From: Pseudomonadota bacterium
GTDB lineage: Bacteria; Pseudomonadota; Gammaproteobacteria; Steroidobacterales; Steroidobacteraceae
Direction: 5' to 3'
Length of the DNA: 64,000 nucleotides
NCBI GenBank assembly: GCA_026398735.1
Contig: JAPLSH010000015.1
Span: 1-64,000, forward strand
In this document: positions 45,444 to 62,890 of the stretch, piece by piece
How the letters are laid out: each line of letters begins with the position of its first letter
Position numbering within the stretch: the stretch's first letter is position 1
Made by a program: the position numbers and the translations under genes
Notes under the pieces: model-generated
What the model was told of the DNA's origin: nothing
What the model saw: only the letters and a program-made list of their open reading frames with translations
Databases searched by the model: none

Positions 45444-46967
45444 ATGCCTCTTTACGTCAATACCAATACGACTGCGCTTAATGCACAGCGCAGTCTCACA
45501 TCGGCTAACACTTCTCTGCAGACAGCGCTCAAGCGGTTGTCGTCCGGTCAGCGCATCAACAGCGCCCAGGACGATGCAGCGGGCTTGGGAATTTCGGAGC
45601 GGATGACCACGCAGATCTCGGGCCTGAACCAGGCCGCACGCAATGCCCAGGACGCCATCTCGCTGTCCCAGGTGACCGAAGGTGCGCTGGGTGAAGTGAC
45701 AAAGAACCTGCAGCGCGTTCGCGAGCTGTCGGTGCAGTCGGCCAATGCCACCAACTCCTCCAGCGACCGCGCGGTGCTGGATCAGGAAGTTCAGCTGCGT
45801 CTTGCAGAAATTGACCGTATTGCTACCCAGACCAACTTCAACGGCCAGAAAGTGCTCGATGGCACCTTTGGTACCAGCACCTTCCAGGTCGGTGCCAATG
45901 CCGGCGAAACGATCGCCGTCAATCTGTCGACCAGCATCAAGACCAATTCATTGGGCAAGGTGTCTGACAGCGTGGGTGGCAGCACCTATAGCAGCGCACT
46001 GAATGTCGGCCAGCAAGGCGCAGCAGTAGATGCCACGACGATGGCCGCAGGCGATATGCGCATTGCCATTGGTGCCGGTTCGGCGGTGTCGATCTTGGGC
46101 TCGGCGGGCTATGCCGGTTCAGCAACCGGTCAGGGCGCAAGCAGCGGTTATGCCAAGGCTGCAGCGATCAATGCATCGGGCGTTGCCGGTTTGACCGCAA
46201 CGGCAGATACCAGCTCTCAATATGCCTATGTCGCCACCACGGGCGCCGGCTATACCCTGAGCATCAACGGCACGACCATTGTCAGTGCCGGTACCACCGC
46301 CCTTACCGGGTCGGATTGGGCAACGTTGGTCAACGGTTACACCGGCAGCACCGGCGTGACGGCCGCCTTTGACTCGGTCAACAATCGTATGACCCTGCAG
46401 GCCGCTGACGGCCGTGATATCGCTATCTCACAGACCGCGACGGTGGCGGGTGACGTTGCCAAGGGCCTCGGCGCTAAGGCAGGCACCAACAACAGCAGCA
46501 ATACGGCCACCGCGCTGACGGCTGCTGTGGGCACAGCGGTTGCGCTGACTGATCGTGCCTCGATCCGGCTGGCGTCGTCGAGTGCAGTCACGGTTAGTGG
46601 TACAACACCGGCTCGCATCGGCTATGCCGCGGGTACGCAGGCGTTGGGCTCCTCCACGCTGAGCGCCGGCTCTGTTACCACGCTGAGCAATGCAAACTCC
46701 ATGATCGGCATGGTCGATGCAGCATTGGAGCAAGTCTCGTCGGTGCGCGGTGGCCTGGGTGCGATTCAGAGTCGTATCGAGGCAACGATCTCGTCGATTC
46801 TGGTGAACTCAGAGAACCTGCAGTCGTCGCGCAGCCGCATCTTGGATACCGACTACGCAGCCGAGACGGCCAACTTGACCAAGGCGCAGGTGATGCAGCA
46901 GGCATCTACCGCCATTCTGAGTCAGGCCAACGCCGTGCCGCAGAGTGTGTTGTCGTTGCTCAAGTAA
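45444..46967 (+). CDS. fliC: Flagellin 1
   Basis: Filament subunit, 507 residues. Conserved D0/D1 ends: LYVNTNTTALNAQRSLTSAN, LSSGQRINSAQDDAAGLGIS at the N-terminus, and TDYAAETANLTKAQVMQQAS plus LSQANAVPQSVLSLLK at the C-terminus. The centre is Ala/Gly/Thr/Ser-rich with a flagellin IN-like segment (GVTAAFDSVNNRMTLQAADG). It differs from copies 2 and 3 at several D0/D1 positions and in promoter type. RBS TGGAG lies 8-12 bases upstream. Confidence 0.96.
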   Translation: MPLYVNTNTTALNAQRSLTSANTSLQTALKRLSSGQRINSAQDDAAGLGISERMTTQISGLNQAARNAQDAISLSQVTEGALGEVTKNLQRVRELSVQSANATNSSSDRAVLDQEVQLRLAEIDRIATQTNFNGQKVLDGTFGTSTFQVGANAGETIAVNLSTSIKTNSLGKVSDSVGGSTYSSALNVGQQGAAVDATTMAAGDMRIAIGAGSAVSILGSAGYAGSATGQGASSGYAKAAAINASGVAGLTATADTSSQYAYVATTGAGYTLSINGTTIVSAGTTALTGSDWATLVNGYTGSTGVTAAFDSVNNRMTLQAADGRDIAISQTATVAGDVAKGLGAKAGTNNSSNTATALTAAVGTAVALTDRASIRLASSSAVTVSGTTPARIGYAAGTQALGSSTLSAGSVTTLSNANSMIGMVDAALEQVSSVRGGLGAIQSRIEATISSILVNSENLQSSRSRILDTDYAAETANLTKAQVMQQASTAILSQANAVPQSVLSLLK

Positions 46968-46980
46968 CGCGACGGTCAGT

Positions 46981-47013
46981 TCCGCGACAGGTGGTTTTGC
47001 CGCCTGTCGCGGA
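46981..47013 (+). terminator. Hairpin after flagellin 1
   Basis: TCCGCGACAGG and CCTGTCGCGGA form an 11-bp perfect stem with an 11-base loop (TGGTTTTGCCG). No T-run follows; probable terminator or mRNA 3'-stabiliser. Confidence 0.6.
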
Positions 47014-47045
47014 GGCTGAAATAATTTCAGTGTTGTGGCGCGACC

Positions 47046-47061
47046 TGTGACGCAGATCACA
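47046..47061. promoter_or_regulatory. Flagellar palindrome at fliC2
   Basis: TGTGACGCAGATCACA, an exact TGTGA-N6-TCACA site, ending nine bases before the sigma-28 -35 box. Confidence 0.75.
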
Positions 47062-47070
47062 CTGAGGGTG

Positions 47071-47097
47071 CAAAGTTTTGCCGCCCCTTGCCGTTAG
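47071..47097 (+). promoter_or_regulatory. Sigma-28 promoter of fliC2
   Basis: CAAAGTTT (47071-47078), 11 bases, GCCGTTAG (47090-47097); 67 bases before the fliC2 start. Confidence 0.85.
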
Positions 47098-47116
47098 TTC
47101 TCCTGTGAGCTTCTGA

Positions 47117-47134
47117 GGAGACATTGCGGTCTCC
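47117..47134 (+). other. Leader hairpin of fliC2 mRNA
   Basis: GGAGAC-ATTGCG-GTCTCC, 6-bp perfect stem in the predicted 5' leader, with AGGAG at its 5' side and a second AGGAG at the ribosome site (about 47154). Such paired GGA motifs are typical of CsrA/RsmA targets. Confidence 0.35.
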
Positions 47135-47164
47135 CGGAAATATGAAAACCTCCAGGAGAATGTC

Positions 47165-48685
47165 GTGCCTCTTTATATCAATACCAACAGTGCGTCTTTG
47201 GGTGCCCAGCGCAGCCTGACGACCGCCAATAATGCTCTGCAGACTTCGTTGCAGCGCCTGTCTTCAGGCCAGCGCATCAACACCGCCAAGGACGATGCGG
47301 CCGGTATGGGTATCACCAATCGCATGACCACGCAGATCACCGGTCTGAACCAGGCTGCCCGTAATGCCGGCGACGGCATTTCGCTGGCGCAGGTCACAGA
47401 AGGTGCGCTGGGTGAAGTGACCAAAAACCTGCAGCGCGTACGCGAGCTGGCTGTTCAGTCTGCCAACGCCACCAACTCTGCCGGTGACCGCGCGGTGCTG
47501 GATCAGGAAGTGCAACTGCGCTTTGCAGAAATCGACCGTATTTCGTCGCAGACCAATTTTAATGGCCAGAAAGTGCTCGATGGCACCTTTGGCACTAGCA
47601 CCTTTCAGGTCGGCGCCAACGCCGGTGAGACCATTTCGGTGAACTTGTCGCAGAGCGTCAAGTCCAGCATATTGGGCAAGGTGTCGGACAGCGTCGGTGG
47701 CTCGGCGTATAACAGCGCGCTGAACATTGGCCAGCAGGGTACGGCAGTGGACGCCACCGTGATGACCGCTGGTGAAATGCGTATTGCGATTGGCACCGGC
47801 GCTGCAGTCTCTATTGCAGGCTCCGCCGCCTATGCTGGTGCCGCTACGGGCCAGGGTTCAGCCAGCGCCTATGCCAAGGCAGGTGCTGTCAACGCTTCGG
47901 GCGTCGGCTCGCTGACAGCCACAGCGGACACAACGTCTCAGTACGCCTATGTGGCGACCACAGGTGTCGGCTATACACTTGCCATCAACGGTCAGGCCAT
48001 TACCACTGCGGGTACCACGGCACTGTCGGGGTCAGACTGGGCCACCATGGTCAACGGCTATACCGGCAGCACCGGTGTGACGGCGACCTTCGATTCGGTC
48101 AACTCCCGCATGACAATGCAGGCGGCCGATGGGCGCGATATTGCTATCACTCAGCAGGCCACCGTAGCCGGTGACTCTGGTAAGGGCCTTGGGGCCAAAG
48201 CCGGCACCAACAACGCCACCAATACCACGTCCGCCGTAACAGTTGCTCTGGCGGCAACGAACGTCACCGACCGTGGTTCGATCCGTCTGACTTCATCCAG
48301 TGCGGTGACGGTCAGCGGCACGACGCCCGCTCGCATCGGCTATGCCGCTGCGACGCAGGCGCTGGGCACTAGCACGCTGTCGTCGAGCTCGGTGACCACA
48401 CTTGCCAATGCCAACTCGATGATTACCAGTGTCGATGCGGCTCTGGATCAAGTGTCGACCTTGCGTGGCCAGATGGGCGCCATCCAGAGTCGTATCGAAG
48501 CCACGATCTCGTCGATCTTGGTGAACTCGGAGAACCTGCAGTCTTCGCGCAGCCGCATCCTGGACACGGACTACGCGGCTGAGACGGCCAACCTGACTAA
48601 GGCGCAGGTGATGCAGCAGGCATCCACCGCGATCCTGAGCCAGGCCAATGCTGCTCCGCAGTCAGTGCTCTCGCTGCTGCGTTGA
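47165..48685 (+). CDS. fliC: Flagellin 2
   Basis: 506 residues from a GTG at 47165 with AGGAG seven bases upstream. N-terminus LYINTNSASLGAQRSLTTAN and LSSGQRINTAKDDAAGMGIT; C-terminus as in flagellin 1, ending SVLSLLR. It is nearly identical to flagellin 3 in the first 170 and last 130 residues, with more change in the centre. Has its own sigma-28 promoter and a terminator after it, so it is an independent unit. Confidence 0.96.
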   Translation: MPLYINTNSASLGAQRSLTTANNALQTSLQRLSSGQRINTAKDDAAGMGITNRMTTQITGLNQAARNAGDGISLAQVTEGALGEVTKNLQRVRELAVQSANATNSAGDRAVLDQEVQLRFAEIDRISSQTNFNGQKVLDGTFGTSTFQVGANAGETISVNLSQSVKSSILGKVSDSVGGSAYNSALNIGQQGTAVDATVMTAGEMRIAIGTGAAVSIAGSAAYAGAATGQGSASAYAKAGAVNASGVGSLTATADTTSQYAYVATTGVGYTLAINGQAITTAGTTALSGSDWATMVNGYTGSTGVTATFDSVNSRMTMQAADGRDIAITQQATVAGDSGKGLGAKAGTNNATNTTSAVTVALAATNVTDRGSIRLTSSSAVTVSGTTPARIGYAAATQALGTSTLSSSSVTTLANANSMITSVDAALDQVSTLRGQMGAIQSRIEATISSILVNSENLQSSRSRILDTDYAAETANLTKAQVMQQASTAILSQANAAPQSVLSLLR

Positions 48686-48715
48686 TAGCTGAGCTGGAGT
48701 TGATAAGGTGAAAAG

Positions 48716-48743
48716 CGGGGCTGCGTAAGCGGCCCCGTTTTTT
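48716..48743 (+). terminator. Intrinsic terminator after fliC2
   Basis: CGGGGC and GCCCCG arms (48716-48721, 48732-48737) followed by six T. Confidence 0.88.
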
Positions 48744-48768
48744 GCAGGGGAGCAGGTCAAAGCTAAAA

Positions 48769-48784
48769 CGTGATCTGCATCACA
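48769..48784. promoter_or_regulatory. Flagellar palindrome at fliC3
   Basis: CGTGATCTGCATCACA, the site in reverse orientation, ending nine bases before the proposed -35 box. Confidence 0.7.
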
Positions 48785-48793
48785 TGAGCAGTC

Positions 48794-48820
48794 TCAAGAA
48801 TGTTTGGTTGGTGCCGCTAC
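48794..48820 (+). promoter_or_regulatory. Sigma-28 promoter of fliC3
   Basis: TCAAGAAT, 11 bases, GCCGCTAC. It is weaker than the fliC2 promoter but has identical spacing to the palindrome. Confidence 0.65.
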
Positions 48821-48914
48821 ATAACCTGTACAGCAGTGTGGCGGCCTACGAACTTCGTGGCGCTATCGCCGCAGTTTAAACGTCACCAAGCTTTGTATAA
48901 TTCAGGAGTCCTCA

Positions 48915-50438
48915 ATGCCTCTTTATATCAACACCAACAGCTCGTCTCTGGGTGCCCAGCGCGCGCTGACCACTGCCAATAACACCTTGCAGACTTCGTT
49001 GCAGCGCCTGTCTTCGGGCCAGCGCATCAATACTGCCAAGGACGATGCGGCCGGCATGGGTATCACCAATCGCATGACCACGCAGATCACCGGTCTGAAC
49101 CAGGCTGCCCGCAACGCCGGCGACGGCATTTCGTTGGCACAGGTCACAGAAGGTGCGCTGGGTGAAGTCACCAAGAACTTGCAGCGCGTACGCGAGCTGG
49201 CTGTCCAGTCTGCCAACGCCACCAACTCTGCCGGCGATCGCGCGGTGCTGGATCAGGAAGTGCAGCTGCGCTTTGCAGAAATCGATCGTATCGCGACCCA
49301 GACCAACTTCAACGGCCAGAAAGTGCTCGACGGCACATTCGGCACCAGCACCTTCCAGGTCGGCGCCAACGCCGGCGAGACCATCTCGGTCAACCTGTCA
49401 CAGAGCGTCAAGTCCAGCGTGCTGGGCAAGGTGTCGGACAGCGTCGGTAACGTGGCGTACAACAGCGCACTCAACGTTGGCCAGCAGGGTGCGGCAGTAG
49501 ACGCCACCGCGATGGCCGCAGGCGATATGCGTATTGCCATTGGTACTGGCGCCGCCGTATCGATCACCGGCTCGGCGGCCTATGCTGGCGCCGCGACGGG
49601 CCAGGGCTCATCCAGCGCCTTCGCCAAGGCAGCGGCTATCAACGCCTCGGGCGTTGGTTCGCTGGCAGCGACGGCCGACACCACATCGGTCTATGCCTAT
49701 GCCGCTACGACGGGCGTCGGCTACACGCTGAGCATCAACGGTCAGGCCATAACCACTGCGGGCACTACTGCACTGTCGGGATCAGACTGGGCCACCATGG
49801 TCAACGGCTATACCGGCAGCACCGGTGTAACCGCAACTTTCGACTCGGTTAATAACCGCATGACCATGCAGGCTGTTGATGGTCGCGACATCGCGATATC
49901 CCAGACAGCCACGGTGGCCGGTGATGTTGGTAAAGGCCTCGGTCTAAAGGCAGGCACCAACAACAGCAGCAATACGGCTACGGCATTGACCACTGCTGTC
50001 AGCACGGCGGTTGCTTTGACCGATCGCGGTTCGATTCGTTTGACGTCATCCAGTGCAGTGACGGTCAGCGGCACGACGCCGCTTCGCATCGGCTACGCCG
50101 CCGCGACGCAGGCGCTGGGCACCAGCACGCTATCGTCAAGCTCGGTGACCACGCTGGCCAATGCCAACTCGATGATCACCAACGTCGATGCGGCGCTGGA
50201 TCAAGTGTCGAGCTTGCGTGGTCAGATGGGTGCGGTGCAAAGCCGTATCGAGGCCACGATCTCGTCGATCCTGGTGAACTCGGAGAATCTGCAGGCTTCA
50301 CGCAGCCGCATCCTGGACACCGACTACGCGGCCGAGACGGCCAACCTGACCAAGGCGCAGGTGATGCAGCAGGCATCCACTGCGATCCTGAGCCAGGCTA
50401 ACGCGGCTCCGCAGTCGGTACTGTCACTGCTGCGTTAA
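48915..50438 (+). CDS. fliC: Flagellin 3
   Basis: 507 residues from an ATG with CAGGAG nine bases upstream. N-terminus LYINTNSSSLGAQRALTTAN; C-terminus ends SVLSLLR. It shares most of its D0/D1 sequence with flagellin 2, while parts of its centre (GDVGKGLG, NNSSNTATALT) are closer to flagellin 1, suggesting exchange between copies. Predicted independent transcription from a sigma-28 promoter, with a strong terminator after it. Confidence 0.96.
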   Translation: MPLYINTNSSSLGAQRALTTANNTLQTSLQRLSSGQRINTAKDDAAGMGITNRMTTQITGLNQAARNAGDGISLAQVTEGALGEVTKNLQRVRELAVQSANATNSAGDRAVLDQEVQLRFAEIDRIATQTNFNGQKVLDGTFGTSTFQVGANAGETISVNLSQSVKSSVLGKVSDSVGNVAYNSALNVGQQGAAVDATAMAAGDMRIAIGTGAAVSITGSAAYAGAATGQGSSSAFAKAAAINASGVGSLAATADTTSVYAYAATTGVGYTLSINGQAITTAGTTALSGSDWATMVNGYTGSTGVTATFDSVNNRMTMQAVDGRDIAISQTATVAGDVGKGLGLKAGTNNSSNTATALTTAVSTAVALTDRGSIRLTSSSAVTVSGTTPLRIGYAAATQALGTSTLSSSSVTTLANANSMITNVDAALDQVSSLRGQMGAVQSRIEATISSILVNSENLQASRSRILDTDYAAETANLTKAQVMQQASTAILSQANAAPQSVLSLLR

Positions 50439-53777: not shown

Positions 53778-53887
53778 TTCGCGAACCACGTCACAGGTGG
53801 CTGCTGCTGAGTTCGGCAATGCGTCACTTTCTCGACGCTCCCATAACCTGACAATCACTGCTCTTCAAAGAGGTGGTGTCAGGACTC

Positions 53888-55022
53888 ATGGCAACGATTG
53901 AAAGCGAAGTGTTTAGCGGTCCGGTTTTGCGTGCGCCTGTCGTGGCCAGCATGCCCACGGGCAGGTCTCGCGCCATTCGTGATGTCTTGACCCTTATTGA
54001 CCAAGTCGCGGCTCACGAGTCCAGTGTATTGGTGCTGGGAGAATCTGGCACGGGCAAAGAAGTGGTTGCTCGTGCGATCCATGAGGCAAGCCCGCGTCGT
54101 AGCCGGCCGTTCATTGCCGTCAATTGCGGCGCAATTCCTGCTGACCTACTCGAGTCTGAGCTCTTTGGCCATGAAAAAGGCGCCTTTACAGGTGCCGTGG
54201 CCACGCGTAAGGGCCGCTTTGAGCTGGCTGAGGGTGGCACGCTGTTTCTAGACGAAATTGGCGACATGAGCCTACCCATGCAGGTGAAGCTGCTTCGCGT
54301 GCTGCAGGAGCGGGTATTTGAACGCGTGGGCAGCGCACTGCAGTTTCGCTGCAATGTGCGCATCATTGCCGCCACTCACCGCAATCTAGAAGAGGCGATC
54401 ACCCGTGGCGGTTTTCGCGAAGATCTTTTCTATCGCCTCAATGTCTTTCCTATCGATATGCCTCCTTTGCGTGGCCGATTGGAAGACTTGCCTGTTTTAG
54501 TCAATGATTTCGCAATCTATAACGACGCTGCAGTGTTTGGCTGACTATCCCTGGCCTGGCAATGTGCGCGAGTTGGCTAATCTGATCGAGCGGCTGTCCA
54601 TTCTGTGTGGCTCGCGTCCAGTGACAATCGGTGACTTGCCGCCGCGTTACCGACCCAAAGACTGGGTGCCGCCGTTGTTTCAGGAGCTTGCGCTTGAGTC
54701 ATTGCAGGAACCAACGCGGTTTAACGACAGCTACGACTACGACAGCGTCGGGCTCAACGAGCGCGAAGCGCTGTTGATTCTCGAGCAGGACCTGCGTTTG
54801 CCGGTTGCTGACCTTGCAACGCTGCCCGAAATGGGCCTCGACTTGCGTATCCACATTGCTGCTATTGAAGAACAGCTCATTCGACAATCGCTGGATCGTA
54901 CGGCAGGGGTGGTTGCACAAGCTGCACGGCTTTTAGGCTTGCGCCGGACGACACTGGTTGAAAAGTTACGCAAATACGGCATCAGCGGCATCAGCGGCAT
55001 AGACGAGGTGACGGAGGATTGA
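53888..55022 (+). pseudogene. fleQ: FleQ master regulator remnant: no N-terminal domain, frameshift
   Basis: Sigma-54 activator of flagellar genes, damaged. From the ATG at 53888 one frame gives Walker A ([14 protein letters not shown]), the sigma-54 contact GAFTGA, Walker B ([12 protein letters not shown]) and the Arg-finger segment [18 protein letters not shown], then stops at 54544. Another frame (about 54520-55022) gives YPWPGNVRELANLIERLSI and the FleQ helix-turn-helix QAARLLGLRRTTLVEKLRKY. Between VLVND and the second part, roughly 13 conserved residues are missing, consistent with a 38 or 41 base deletion. The N-terminal REC-like domain of about 120 residues is also absent, with no room upstream. 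Without recoding, the product has no DNA-binding domain. Confidence 0.85.
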
Positions 55023-56519: not shown

Positions 56520-58205
56520 ATGAATGAAGATGAAGTCGTCATAGAGGCCGAGAAGGGAACCATTATCCCTGCCGGTCTCAAACCGTTGCTGATGCTCATT
56601 GGCGTAGCCGCTGCGGTTGCCGCTGGCGTTGGGGTGGTGCTGTGGTCTCAAGGTCCCAGTTACAGCCTGCTGTATGGCAATCTTGCTGACACCGATAAAG
56701 CGCAAGTGGTTGCGTCGCTTGACCAGGCCGCTATTCCGTATCGATTAGAGCCCGGTACCGGTGCGGTGCTGGTGCCCAGTGACAAAGTCAGCGATGCACG
56801 CATGAAGCTGGCTGCGAAGGGCTTGCCGGAATCCGGTGGCTACTCGCTGATGGACAAAGATCCTGGTTTTGGCGTTAGCCAGTTCATGGAGAGCGCGCGC
56901 TACCAGCATGCTATCGAGACCGAGCTGGGCCGCACCATTGCGAGCCTCAAACAAGTGGAGGGCGCCCGGGTGCATCTGGCCATGCCAGCGCAATCCGCGT
57001 TTGTGCGTGATAAGCGTCAGGCCTCGGCATCTGTGTTTTTGCAGATGAAAAGTGGCCGTCGTCTGGAGCGCGAACAGATCTCATCCATCATCAATCTGGT
57101 GGCTTCAAGTATTCCCGACATGGACCCCAACCAGGTCACTGTCATAGATAGCCAGGGGCGATTGCTCTCTTCGCCAGACCGGGACGGCGAAGTGGCTCAG
57201 CGCGAACAGCAAATCGAAATTGCCCGTCGCATGGAAGAAGACTACGCCCAGCGCATCGAATCGCTGCTGTCACCTATTTTGGGTAATGGTCGCGTGAAGG
57301 CGCAGGTGGTTGCACAGGTAGAGATGTCTGCTACCGAAGAGGCCCGCGAGCAGTATCGACCCGACAGCCAGATTCTGCGCAGTGAGCAAACCAGCGAGGA
57401 AAGCTCCCGCACGGGGCCCAACGCTGCCCAAGGCATACCCGGAGCCCTCAGCAATCAGCCGCCACCGGGTGGAACAGTCGCTCAGGCCGCGCCTGCTGCT
57501 GCCACGCCCGCCGTCGCCGGTGCTCCAGGCGCAACAGCGCCGGGTGCTCAGGTTGCTGTAGCCGCTGCAGCCAGCGCTGCAACGCCAGAAAACACCAATC
57601 GTCAGGCCACGCGCAACTATGAGTTAGACCGCACGATCGCCTATACCAAGAATCCTGCCGGGCGCCTGCAGCGTTTGTCGGTCGCGGTGTTGGTCGACAA
57701 CATGCGCAAGACAGACAAAGAGGGCAATACAACCGAAGAGCCCTTGAGCGAAGAGCAGATCGAGCGTCTCAAGACGCTGGTCAAAGATGCCGTTGGATTT
57801 GATGAGAAGCGAGGCGACACCGTATCGGTAGTCAACCAAGGCTTCCACACCGATCCGATCAGTGTGCCAGAGATAGAAAAGACGCCCCTGCTTGAACAGC
57901 CGATAGTGCGCGAGGTCGCGCGGATCGGTGCGGGTTTGGTCATTGTGGTGCTGCTGTTGGTGATGGTGGTTCGTCCGCTTATCAAGGGCCTCACGCCCCC
58001 ACCCAAACCGCTTTTGGTATCGGGCTCAAAGGCCCTGGCGCAGCTGCCCAGTCCCGCAAATTCTCCGGCAGCACCAGCGCCTTTGCCGCCGCCTATGCCC
58101 GGTATCCCGTTTGAACTGCAGCTGGAACAGGCCAAGACGATCGTCAGTCAGGATGCGCCGCGTGTTGCGCAGGTGCTCAAAGAGTGGGTTCAGAACGATG
58201 TTTAA
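56520..58205 (+). CDS. fliF: Flagellar MS-ring protein FliF
   Basis: Base ring of the motor in the inner membrane. 561 residues, full length: first membrane helix near 20-42 (LLMLIGVAAAVAAGVGVVLW), periplasmic ring-building motifs (LYGNLADTDKAQVVASL; GFGVSQFMESARYQHAIE), an Ala/Pro-rich loop, the second helix (IGAGLVIVVLLLVMVVRPLI) and a cytoplasmic tail ending EQAKTIVSQDAPRVAQVLKE then WVQNDV. That tail is the conserved FliG-binding segment. Yet the next gene, 13 bases on, is fliH; fliG is not present. Confidence 0.96.
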   Translation: MNEDEVVIEAEKGTIIPAGLKPLLMLIGVAAAVAAGVGVVLWSQGPSYSLLYGNLADTDKAQVVASLDQAAIPYRLEPGTGAVLVPSDKVSDARMKLAAKGLPESGGYSLMDKDPGFGVSQFMESARYQHAIETELGRTIASLKQVEGARVHLAMPAQSAFVRDKRQASASVFLQMKSGRRLEREQISSIINLVASSIPDMDPNQVTVIDSQGRLLSSPDRDGEVAQREQQIEIARRMEEDYAQRIESLLSPILGNGRVKAQVVAQVEMSATEEAREQYRPDSQILRSEQTSEESSRTGPNAAQGIPGALSNQPPPGGTVAQAAPAAATPAVAGAPGATAPGAQVAVAAAASAATPENTNRQATRNYELDRTIAYTKNPAGRLQRLSVAVLVDNMRKTDKEGNTTEEPLSEEQIERLKTLVKDAVGFDEKRGDTVSVVNQGFHTDPISVPEIEKTPLLEQPIVREVARIGAGLVIVVLLLVMVVRPLIKGLTPPPKPLLVSGSKALAQLPSPANSPAAPAPLPPPMPGIPFELQLEQAKTIVSQDAPRVAQVLKEWVQNDV

Positions 58206-58218
58206 GGTTTGCTGAACT

Positions 58219-58875
58219 ATGTCTACTGATGTGAGTACTGCCCAAATCCGTGCCTGGCGTATGCCCGATATCGAGGGCGCTGTGCTGGGCAGTCGACACC
58301 GTCGAGATTTTTTCGGAGATACGCCGGAAGAGGCTGACGCCGCGCTTGAACGCCTTAAACAACAGGCCTGGGATGCCGGTATGGCACAAGCACGTGCCGA
58401 CATTGATGCCATGCATCAGCAGCTGGCTGCCCAATACACCACGCTGCAGTCCGCGCTGGCCGCGCTGGCCCAGCCCATGCTTGCCGTTGACGAGCAGGTA
58501 CGTGCACAACTGACAGAGCTGGCTACGGTGATCGCACGCCATGTAGTACGCCGTGAGCTGCGCAGTGACCCGGCTCAGGTGATTGCCATTGTCCGCGAGA
58601 CCGTAGGCCTACTTCCTGCCGCGACGCCAGATGTGCGCGTGGTTCTGCATCCTGAGGATGCGGCCCTGCTGCGGGAGCGCCTGTCGCTGCCACAAGGCGA
58701 GGGTGCGTGGACGCTGTTTGAAGATCCGACGCTGTCGCGGGGTGGCTGCCGGGTTACGGCCGGGGTGTCGCAGATCGATGCACGCATTGAATCGCGCATG
58801 GCTGCGGTCATTGTCAGCCTGTTGGGCGAAGAGCGTGTGCGCGAACGTGCTAACGGCGAGATCGGCGCACCATGA
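58219..58875 (+). CDS. fliH: Flagellar export ATPase regulator FliH
   Basis: Peripheral stator of the export ATPase; binds FliI and FliN. 218 residues: [11 protein letters not shown] at the start, a central helix ([20 protein letters not shown]) with small-residue spacing, and the C-terminal domain ([39 protein letters not shown]). It overlaps fliI by ATGA and follows fliF directly. Confidence 0.93.
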
Positions 58876-60227
58876 GTGCCGCCGCACGTGACCTATCGGG
58901 AAAGTGGACGGCGCATTTGGCTCGCAATTTGCGTGATGTGCAGCTATTGCCACCGCCTGCCGTTGAAGGACGTTTGACCCGGATGGTGGGGCTGACCTTG
59001 GAAGCGCAGGGCTGCCAAGCAGCCATTGGCGATCGCTGTGACGTCATGGCCGGCGATGGCAGCTTTGTTGAGGCAGAGGTGGTCGGCTTTGCCGGCGACC
59101 GTTTGTACCTCATGCCTACAGGCGACATTCACGGCTTGCGGCCCAGTGCGCGGGTCATTCCTCGCACTGGTGCGGGTTTTGTAAAAGTAGGCCCGGAGAT
59201 GCTGGGCCGCGTAATCGATGGCGCAGGCGTTCCCCTTGACGGTAAAGGCCCCTTGCGCTGCGAGGGTCAGACTCGTCTGACAGGCACCGCCATCAATCCG
59301 CTGCAGCGCGCACCGATCACGCAGACATTGGATGTGGGTGTGCGCGCCATCAATGCATTGCTAACCGTCGGTCGAGGTCAACGCATCGGCTTGTTTGCAG
59401 GCTCTGGTGTGGGTAAGAGCGTGTTGCTGGGCATGATGGCGCGCTACACCGAGGCCGACATCATCGTTGTGGGACTGGTGGGTGAGCGCGGACGAGAGGT
59501 CAAAGAGTTCATCGAAAAGATTCTGGGTGAAGAGGGGCTGCGTCGTTCTGTTGTGGTCGCCTCTCCCGCCGACAATACGCCCCTGATGCGTCTGCATGGG
59601 GCTTGGCTTTCTACTGCAGTCGCGGAGTACTTCCGCGACCAAGGTCAGAATGTCCTGTTGATCATGGATTCCTTGACACGCTTTGCTCAGGCTCAGCGCG
59701 AGATCGGTCTGGCAATCGGCGAGGCGCCAGCCACCAAGGGCTATCCGCCGTCTGTATTTGCCCGTTTGCCCCAACTAGTAGAACGTGCGGGCAATGGTGC
59801 CCAGGGAACCGGCTCTATAACCGCCTTCTATACTGTGTTGACCGAAGGTGATGATCAAAACGATCCGATAGCCGACAGTGCCCGTGCCATCTTGGATGGC
59901 CATGTCGTGTTGTCACGCCGGATTGCCGAAACGGGCCAATATCCTGCGATCGATGTGGAAGCCTCGATCAGTCGTGTGATGCACGACATTGTTCCCACCG
60001 ATCAAACCAACGCTGCCCGTAAGCTTAAGCAGACCCTGTCGGCTTATGAGCAGAACCGTGATCTGGTGGCTATAGGCGCCTACACCCGCGGCACCGATCC
60101 GCGCATTGACGCCGCTATGGCGTTGTGGCCGCAGATGCAGCGATTTCTTGCGCAGGGTATGCACGAGAGCGTATCGCTGCCCGATAGCGTCGCCCAACTT
60201 GCGGCGCTGTTCCAGGACGCTGCATGA
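58872..60227 (+). CDS. fliI: Flagellum-specific export ATPase FliI
   Basis: 451 residues, F1-beta-like hexameric ATPase that releases substrates from chaperones. Walker [34 protein letters not shown], Walker [19 protein letters not shown] and [19 protein letters not shown] are all intact. Overlaps fliH and fliJ. Confidence 0.97.
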
Positions 60228-60676
60228 CCCGCTCAACGCGCATTGCCCCAGTGCAAAAAGTGCTAGAGGGCAAGGAGCAGGCGCAGGCTCGCAAGCTTGG
60301 CCTTGCACAACAGGCCGTCGCAGCCGCCGAAGGGCGCTTGGAAGAGCTGCGCAGCTATCAGGCAGACTATGCGGCAGGGTTCGACAAACAAGTAGCACAC
60401 GGTGCTGCGGTGCATGTGCTGCAGGACTACCGGGCTTTCATGGTTCGGCTGGTGGATGCCATACGGCAGCAAGAACAGCTGGTCGAGAAGCAGAAACTGG
60501 AGATGGCCATGCAGACTGCCTATTGGCAATCTGCGGCGCGTCAGTCGCGTGGTTTGGATTCGGTGGTCGCCGGATGGAAGCGCCAGGAAGAGCAGTTGGC
60601 TGACCGACGCGATCAAGCTGCAACTGATGAGCGGGCGCTCTCTATGCTGTTGCGCAAGACAGGAGTAATAGGCTGA
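60224..60676 (+). CDS. fliJ: Flagellar export chaperone FliJ
   Basis: 150 residues, a two-helix coiled coil resembling the gamma stalk of F-ATPase, linking FliI to FlhA. Strongly charged heptads ([38 protein letters not shown]). Recognised mainly by size, composition and its place between fliI and fliK, both overlapping. Confidence 0.9.
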
Positions 60677-61776
60677 TGAACACGCTGACACTGAACATTC
60701 CTGCCGCACCCCCTAATCAAAACACTTCGCTGCGATCCCCAACTTCCGAGCCCTCACAAGATCAATCTTTTGATCAACTGATGTCTGCCCAGAGACCTGA
60801 AAAATCGGTCGGCAGACAGACCCAAACACCCGAGACGGTAGCCACAGAGGCCGAGGCGCAACAGCCGCCAGACAATGAGGCTGATGTAAGCCAGGCCGAT
60901 GCGCAGCCGGAACCGACACCGGACAGACCGCGCGAGGCCAGTTCTGCAGAGCTGGCCGACGACGCAGATCCGGCTGACGCGGCTCGAGTGGCCGCTGCTG
61001 CTGCTCTTTTGCAATGGCTGGCAGTAGCGCCGGCACCAGTGGGCACGGCGCCGACCACCAGTGGTGCGGCTCCTCTTGCTCCGTCTGGATTACCCACTGC
61101 AGCAGCTGACACCAACGACGCGCCAGCTAACGATGCGACGCTTGGCGACGACGCTTTCAGTACTGCGCCAGTCTTACTGCTCACAGCCGGCGCCGAGCGT
61201 CAGGACCAAGGCGATTCAGGATCCTCGCAATTACGCGGTACTGACACGGCAGCTCTACCGCAAGCAGCAACGACTAGCTTCGGCGCGGTCCTCAACCAAG
61301 CCGGCCAACCGGTATCCCTCTCGGCGCAGGTTGCGCAGTCAGCGCAGGTCCCGCGTCCGTCCATTGAATCGCCGGTTGGAACCAACGAGTGGGCGGAGGA
61401 GCTCGGGACTCGATTGGCTGTCATGACAGCAAGAGGTGAGCAAACCGGGTCCTTGCGGCTGTCGCCAGAGCACCTTGGACCGCTTGAAGTGCAGATTCGG
61501 TTGCAAGACGACAAGGCCAGCGTGATTTTCGGGGCGCAGCACGCCGATACGCGCGCCGCATTGCAGGAAGCTTTGCCGCGACTGCGTGAACTGTTTGCCG
61601 CGTCAGGCCTGCAGTTGCTCGATGCAGGTGTGTCGAGAGAGGGCGCAAGGCAGGCAATGCCTTCACGCTTTACGCGTAACTTCGGATCTGGCCTCGATGC
61701 GGACAGCACTGGCGTAGAAACCAGCATTTCCGTAGCAGGTCTGCGCCATAGCGGAACGCTCGATACCATCGCCTGA
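60676..61776 (+). CDS. fliK: Hook-length control protein FliK
   Basis: 366 residues. Molecular ruler secreted during hook growth that switches export to filament proteins through FlhB. The first 230 residues are disordered and rich in Ala, Pro, Gln, Asp and Thr; the C-terminal Flg_hook domain carries SLRLSPEHLGPLEVQIRLQD and ALPRLRELFAASGLQLLDA. Ends the flrC-fliK series; a new promoter region follows. Confidence 0.93.
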   Translation: MNTLTLNIPAAPPNQNTSLRSPTSEPSQDQSFDQLMSAQRPEKSVGRQTQTPETVATEAEAQQPPDNEADVSQADAQPEPTPDRPREASSAELADDADPADAARVAAAAALLQWLAVAPAPVGTAPTTSGAAPLAPSGLPTAAADTNDAPANDATLGDDAFSTAPVLLLTAGAERQDQGDSGSSQLRGTDTAALPQAATTSFGAVLNQAGQPVSLSAQVAQSAQVPRPSIESPVGTNEWAEELGTRLAVMTARGEQTGSLRLSPEHLGPLEVQIRLQDDKASVIFGAQHADTRAALQEALPRLRELFAASGLQLLDAGVSREGARQAMPSRFTRNFGSGLDADSTGVETSISVAGLRHSGTLDTIA

Positions 61777-61965: not shown

Positions 61966-62499
61966 ATGTCTACTGCTGATGCAAAAAAGTCTGCCAAATC
62001 CAAGGCCGGCGAAGAAGCTGCTAAAGCCGAAGAAGCCAAGAAAGGTGGCAGCAAGAAAAAGCTGATCATCAGTATTGCTGCGGTGGTGGTCCTGTGTGGT
62101 GGCGGCGCCGGCGCCTTCTTCATGATGAAGGGTGGCGATAAGGCCAAACCTGAGGAAGTCCACGAAGCGGTCAAGCTCGCTGCGGTCTATGTGCCGTTGG
62201 ACCCGCCGTTTACTGTGAATTTTGAAAATGTCAGCAATGCCCGCTTCCTTCAGATTGCGGTGCAGATGATGACGCGTGATCCCAAGGCTGTTGAAGAGGT
62301 CAAGGGTCATATGCCGGCGATCCGCAACGACCTGTTGCTGCTGTTCGGTCAGCAAACCGCTGCAGGTTTGTCCAGCCTAGAAGGTAAGGAAAAGCTGCGC
62401 GCTGAAGCTCTGGAGACTGTGCGTTTGACGCTCGGTCATGAGGGCATCAAGCCAGAGACCATCGAAGGTCTGTATTTCACCACCCTCGTGATGCAGTAG
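61966..62499 (+). CDS. fliL: Flagellar basal-body protein FliL
   Basis: Inner-membrane protein that surrounds stator units and affects torque. 177 residues: Lys/Ala/Glu-rich cytoplasmic N-terminus, one membrane helix (LIISIAAVVVLCGGGAGAFF) and a periplasmic stomatin-like domain (VYVPLDPPFTVNF; FLQIAVQMMTRDPKAVEEVK). It normally precedes fliM; here fliN follows after 22 bases. Confidence 0.94.
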   Translation: MSTADAKKSAKSKAGEEAAKAEEAKKGGSKKKLIISIAAVVVLCGGGAGAFFMMKGGDKAKPEEVHEAVKLAAVYVPLDPPFTVNFENVSNARFLQIAVQMMTRDPKAVEEVKGHMPAIRNDLLLLFGQQTAAGLSSLEGKEKLRAEALETVRLTLGHEGIKPETIEGLYFTTLVMQ

Positions 62500-62521
62500 T
62501 CGCAAGGCCAGGAGCTTTCCC

Positions 62522-62890
62522 ATGAGTGAAATGAGCGAAGAAGAAATCTCGGCAGCTATGGAGGCAGACCTTGCTTCTCAGCAGCCACCAATATGGCAGG
62601 AGCCGCGCGGCTCTATTGAGCAAAAGGGTGATGTTGATCTGGACGTCATTCTGCAAGTACCGGTTACCTTGACTTTGGAAGTGGGTCGCACACGGCTGCC
62701 GATCCGCAGTTTGCTGCAGCTTAACCAAGGTTCTGTGGTTGAGCTGGAGCGCGCTGCCGGTGAGCCTTTGGATGTGCATGTAAACGGCACGCTGGTCGCA
62801 CACGGCGAAGTTGTCCTGATCAATGACAAGTTTGGCATTCGCCTCGTCGATGTCATCAGTCCTGCGGATCGCATCCGCACTCTGCGGTAA
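62522..62890 (+). CDS. fliN: Flagellar C-ring protein FliN
   Basis: 122 residues. The C-terminal SpoA domain is complete (LQVPVTLTLEVGRTRLPIRS; LLQLNQGSVVELERAAGEPL; LVDVISPADRIRTLR). FliN forms the base of the C ring and docks FliH-FliI for export. The N-terminal stretch EMSEEEISAAM loosely resembles the ILSQAEIDALL peptide at the start of FliM. fliM itself, which should lie between fliL and fliN, is absent. RBS AGGAG nine bases before the ATG. Confidence 0.95.
   Translation: MSEMSEEEISAAMEADLASQQPPIWQEPRGSIEQKGDVDLDVILQVPVTLTLEVGRTRLPIRSLLQLNQGSVVELERAAGEPLDVHVNGTLVAHGEVVLINDKFGIRLVDVISPADRIRTLR

Follow-up and report, generated by a model that had tools for sequence, protein, structure and literature searches.

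Flagellar switch genes are encoded apart from the rest of the motor across a genus of uncultured Steroidobacteraceae

Results

Two short junctions in the window cluster

The window, a 64,000-nucleotide stretch of a Steroidobacteraceae draft genome, carries on its + strand a flagellar cluster with hook and rod genes at ~34-45 kb, three long flagellin genes, fliD and regulators, and with the gene order fliE-fliF-fliH-fliI-fliJ-fliK-fliL-fliN-fliO. Beyond the window, the same contig (C11) carries fliP, fliR, flhB, flhA, flhF, flhG, fliA and a motC-motD-like stator pair. Compared with the canonical operon fliE-F-G-H-I-J-K-L-M-N-O-P-Q-R-flhB-flhA, the other identified genes of the window keep the same order and orientation, fliN included, but fliG and fliM are found on another contig.

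The MS-ring gene fliF (56520-58205, + strand; 561 amino acids, stop codon TAA) encodes a protein matching TIGR00206 (310 bits), PF01514 and PF08345. Its C-terminal tail (FELQLEQAKTIVSQDAPRVAQVLKEWVQNDV) appears to retain the FliG-binding pattern, as the original prediction had proposed; in an alignment of tails from 23 genomes, the pattern is kept likewise in relatives with canonical gene order. The next gene is fliH (58219-58875, + strand; start codon ATG at 58219; PF02108), and the 13 bases between the two (58206-58218) hold no remnant of fliG, confirming from the sequence the absence that had been noted there. A fliG open reading frame was likewise not found elsewhere in the flagellar region of the window. 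The 13-base gap had also been set against the overlaps from fliH to fliK, and the ORF coordinates agree: fliH ends at 58875 and fliI (58872-60227; ORF list, mostly 60-75% identity to the fliI of relatives) starts at 58872, fliI ends at 60227 and fliJ (60224-60676) starts at 60224, and fliJ shares position 60676 with fliK (60676-61776). All are on the + strand, with fliJ and fliK assigned by position, ORF and matches within the genus. Downstream, fliL (61966-62499, + strand; PF03748) is separated by only 22 bases (62500-62521) from fliN (62522-62890, + strand; TIGR02480), which the FliN tree identifies as the native copy, retained in the main cluster. As canonical relatives read fliL-fliM-fliN, fliM is gone from this cluster too, an absence that the original prediction had missed.

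Among the regulators, a fleQ-like sigma-54 activator gene (53873-55022) is split over two frames. Alignment to the intact copy of a congener (G002; L243) places a 38-base absence near position 54524, resulting in a frameshift that is either a true mutation or an assembly error, and its consequence for flagellar expression in the window strain is uncertain. A second fleQ-like gene, on contig C31, is intact (L006:13846-14991).

A complete switch set beside chemotaxis genes on another contig

The genome as a whole spans 2.77 Mb in 36 contigs and is 98.4% complete. A search of it for the missing genes, as had been recommended, yielded two FliG and two FliM proteins, with FliG encoded on contigs C10 and C31, motAB on C31, and the motC-motD-like pair on C11. 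On C10, mnmG and a divergent gene are followed by a fliG-fliM-fliN-cheY-cheZ-cheA-cheW operon, and one of the explanations originally offered, that fliG lies elsewhere, is therefore the one that holds. Its FliG (C10:271634-272644), FliM and FliN are full length and all score above curated cut-offs in profile searches. FliG reaches 318 bits against TIGR00207 (cut-off 226.7) and contains its N, M and C domains (PF14842, PF14841 and PF01706), while FliM reaches 342 bits against TIGR01397 (cut-off 219.6) with PF02154 and PF01052, corresponding to a middle domain and a FliN-like C-terminus. Alignment of the C10 FliG with experimentally determined FliG structures (8z4d, 8umd) extends over the full length, and in alignments with these and with relatives it retains the charged torque residues K264, R281, D288, D289 and R297 (E. 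coli numbering) as well as the EHPQ and MFVF motifs. The N-terminal CheY-binding motif of FliM, QDEIDALL, is also retained. The fliN of this operon is a second, divergent copy beside the native fliN of the window (FliN tree).

Just upstream of the C10 fliG, in the correct orientation, is a sigma-54-like site (CGGCACG-N4-TTGCT), and such a site precedes the remote fliG in 6/6 genus genomes examined, each time with 10 or 11 matches over the 12 positions scored. The sites were found with a simple home-made scan for -24/-12 elements, which gave five sites of that score on both strands of the whole 64-kb window; their recurrence at the same place and in the same orientation is thus unlikely to be due to chance.

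The second FliG belongs to a complete and separate flagellar system. Contig C31 carries fliF-fliG-fliH-fliI-fliJ-fliK-fliL-fliM-fliN-fliO-fliP and further genes, together with flhA, flhF, flhG, fliA and motAB, so that this system has its own fliF-fliG-fliH, fliM, fliN and stator. The C31 FliG is complete and sits in a distant clade of the FliG tree. This system (L005 and L006 in the window genome, G000) also occurs in G002, with similar systems in G020 and G065.

The separation is conserved across the genus

The window genome belongs to a genus of uncultured bacteria, represented here by the genomes G001-G005 and G007 (MAGs such as Jr-16oct17-84, Umea_bin-10690, Jr-25may17-45, Jr-28jun17-52 and KLAP74). 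In all members whose contigs span the loci, fliF is directly followed by fliH, fliL likewise by fliN, and fliG-fliM-fliN lies elsewhere. In G002, fliF is broken across contig ends, and its 3' end directly abuts fliH. Four members (G001, G003, G004 and G007) each carry a single fliF, a single fliG and a single fliM, with both short junctions and a remote fliG-fliM-fliN; as these genes are single, the remote switch must serve a FliF of the window type. In addition, trees of FliG and FliM from the genus have the same branching order as the tree of concatenated FliF, FliH and FliI, indicating joint inheritance of the two loci from the genus ancestor onward. Loss of fliG from the main cluster therefore dates back to the origin of the genus or earlier, contrary to one of the alternatives originally offered, that it was recent.

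Few junctions in flagellar operons are as well conserved as those between fliF and fliG and between fliL and fliM, and the FliF and FliG proteins interact directly. Conservation of the fliF-fliG order, also assumed at the outset, was evident across the class: among 58 sampled gammaproteobacterial genomes, FliG is encoded within ~2 kb of FliF in 30/30 in which both genes were found, with the window genome excluded. One further genome of this sample (G165), a fragmented assembly, has FliF without FliG and is not among the 30. Of 80 named fliG loci retrieved, only the five of the window genus are split; in the other 75, to the extent that contig ends allow a judgment, fliG is preceded by fliF and followed by fliH or fliI. 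Within the family sample, fliF and fliG are separated in the window genus and in one genome of another genus (G085). Apparent separations in G057, G106, G062 and G090 proved to be contig ends and were rejected as true splits. Literature searches, which covered open-access papers, found no published description of a split-switch arrangement.

Relatives with two switch sets

Several relatives display states intermediate between the canonical operon and the arrangement of the window genus. SZAS-89 (G097) has one fliF and two complete switch sets (L205:5366-11724 and L206): a canonical operon containing fliG and fliM and, ~70 kb off, a second fliG-fliM-fliN-cheY-cheZ-cheA-cheW whose gene order is identical to that of the C10 operon. 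In genus g17, one genome (G096) is canonical; another (G024; L181, L182) has fliG beside fliF, a main cluster without fliM, and a remote fliG-fliM-fliN by che genes; and a third (G085; L201, L202) has lost both fliG and fliM from the main cluster, leaving fliF-fliH and fliL-fliN junctions and the remote set only. The concatenated FliF, FliH and FliI of G024 and G085 cluster with those of G096 with full support, while their remote FliG and FliM belong to another clade that includes G017, GL140 and palsa MAGs. Tests rejected trees that unite the remote FliG with the native FliG of the same genus (AU p = 0.016) or the remote FliM with the G096 protein (p = 2e-5). In g17, the MS-ring is therefore served by a switch set of foreign origin. 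The native fliG of G024 sits on a long branch. In four other genomes (G017, G045, G046 and G048; L184, L041, L052 and L065, respectively), fliG is in place and fliM is absent between fliL and fliN and located elsewhere; in G048, cheY and cheZ come immediately after the displaced fliM, and cheA and cheW are close by.

Discussion

The window very probably carries a flagellar cluster of a working type, with its motor switch genes at another locus and the C10 FliG serving the window motor. The window FliF would be capped by FliG from C10, and the FliM and FliN of the C10 operon would complete the C-ring. As the genes for CheY, CheZ, CheA and CheW come immediately after these, the ring and signaling genes are probably co-expressed, from the putative sigma-54 promoter. 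Whereas gene content and positions, their conservation across the genus, the congruent trees and the intermediate relatives are observed directly, we infer expression, assembly of a rotor from two loci, and motility. The original prediction had held that, lacking FliG, the motor should not turn, and had itself named a normal fliG elsewhere in the genome as the finding that would overturn this; such a gene is present, and given an intact fliG accompanied by fliM, a second fliN and chemotaxis genes, the motor should turn. Binding of the FliF tail by another protein, also proposed, becomes unnecessary.

How the switch genes came to reside on C10 may be read in the relatives. The order of events that we infer for the window genus is that a second fliG-fliM-fliN set once stood by chemotaxis genes alongside the original set, as it does in SZAS-89 today, and that this remote set took over, with fliM and fliG being deleted from the original set and its fliN staying. 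Addition of a second set followed by loss of the native fliM and fliG is, from sequences and by analogy, the more probable course when compared with a simple move. The rotor itself would then be a replacement, a proposal that we favor with some reserve: a chemotaxis-linked set, either paralogous or foreign, would have coexisted with the native switch and displaced it, leaving a rotor in which the MS-ring is native, the C-ring is substituted and FliN is of two kinds. Replacement is favored over a move because the remote operon contains a divergent extra fliN while the native fliN is retained, and because the same operon order occurs as an extra set in SZAS-89. The window genus retains neither a native fliG nor a native fliM, and the case for replacement is accordingly drawn from the extra fliN and from analogy with other genera.

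The trees are consistent with more than one origin for the window-genus set. Its FliG and FliN join the second set of SZAS-89 with weak support (84/76 and 91/84, respectively), and the FliM tree does not settle its placement relative to that set. An AU test (p = 0.023) argues, though not decisively, against all remote FliG proteins sharing one origin, and the trees do not distinguish a native from a foreign origin of the window-genus set at this depth (FliN test, p = 0.22). A simple translocation, in which fliG and fliM of the original set, together with a duplicate fliN, moved to the chemotaxis operon in the genus ancestor and never faced a competing set, would give a motor that works alike. 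Such a move is compatible with vertical inheritance since that ancestor, and with the position of the genus FliG and FliM, which fall within the family, where native genes would be expected, at a point that the trees do not fix. We nevertheless consider it unlikely, given the divergent second fliN in an operon whose genome keeps the native one, the occurrence of fliG-fliM-fliN-cheY-cheZ-cheA-cheW as an extra set in SZAS-89, and the clearly foreign nature of the remote set in g17.

The remaining readings fare considerably worse. The lack of fliG in the cluster and the frameshifted fleQ-like gene might point to a motor without FliG, either a non-rotating relic or a secretion apparatus, but the surrounding hook, rod, filament and stator genes, a FliF tail common to relatives, and a conserved switch operon with its CheY-binding motif render this highly improbable. 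Even less can be said for the C31 FliG serving both flagella, leaving the C10 FliG with another role: the C31 protein is complete and encoded in the same genome, but it belongs to a distant clade, and the four members with single switch genes lack the C31 system yet have the fliF-fliH junction. Finally, loss of fliG and fliM from the window contig during assembly, conceivable for a draft of 36 contigs and raised for fliG in the original prediction, is scarcely credible when both clean junctions recur in genomes of the genus that different projects assembled separately (Jr, Umea and KLAP74 MAGs) and in G085.

Taken together with what is known of flagellar systems, the parts are familiar and the arrangement is unusual: switch genes are separated from the rest of the motor across a whole genus. 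The C10 proteins are full-length C-ring components with motor and switch motifs (TIGR00207, TIGR01397, TIGR02480), but their genes, unlike standard C-ring genes, share a single operon, separate from fliF, with cheY-cheZ-cheA-cheW and a second fliN. Operons mixing switch and chemotaxis genes are known as fla/che operons, for example in Bacillus subtilis, where switch genes likewise adjoin chemotaxis genes but fliG stays with fliF; on C10, fliG instead travels with fliM and fliN. The genome resembles those of dual-flagella bacteria in having a complete second set with its own fliF-fliG-fliH on C31, but the window set differs in being without switch genes of its own, its switch constituting a third locus. 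Several FliG copies are also found in Spirochaetes (fliG1 and fliG2; PMC7225975), and SZAS-89 and G024 are similar in having more than one FliG per genome, whereas the window genus has lost its native copy and relies on the remote switch alone for the window-type motor.

For the missing fliG itself, these findings are reassuring, as the gene is present in the genome. More broadly, a FliF that is kept while its switch set is encoded elsewhere, together with living two-set intermediates, suggests that the torque and switch ring is exchangeable as a module. This makes testable both the interchangeability of C-rings between motors and the outcome when two sets compete for one MS-ring. Genus g17 (G024 and G085) offers a substituted set that the trees mark as foreign, and SZAS-89 a FliF facing two alternative C-ring sets.

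Two further observations concern the flagellar systems of these genomes. The three successive flagellin genes of the window (45444-50438) encode proteins of ~507 amino acids with a big central insertion, compared to 281 amino acids for the two flagellins of the C31 system. In G065, a lone FliG of the window kind (L203:9890-10891; L204) is encoded far from a C31-type cluster with its own fliG, and is possibly the leftover of a lost system.
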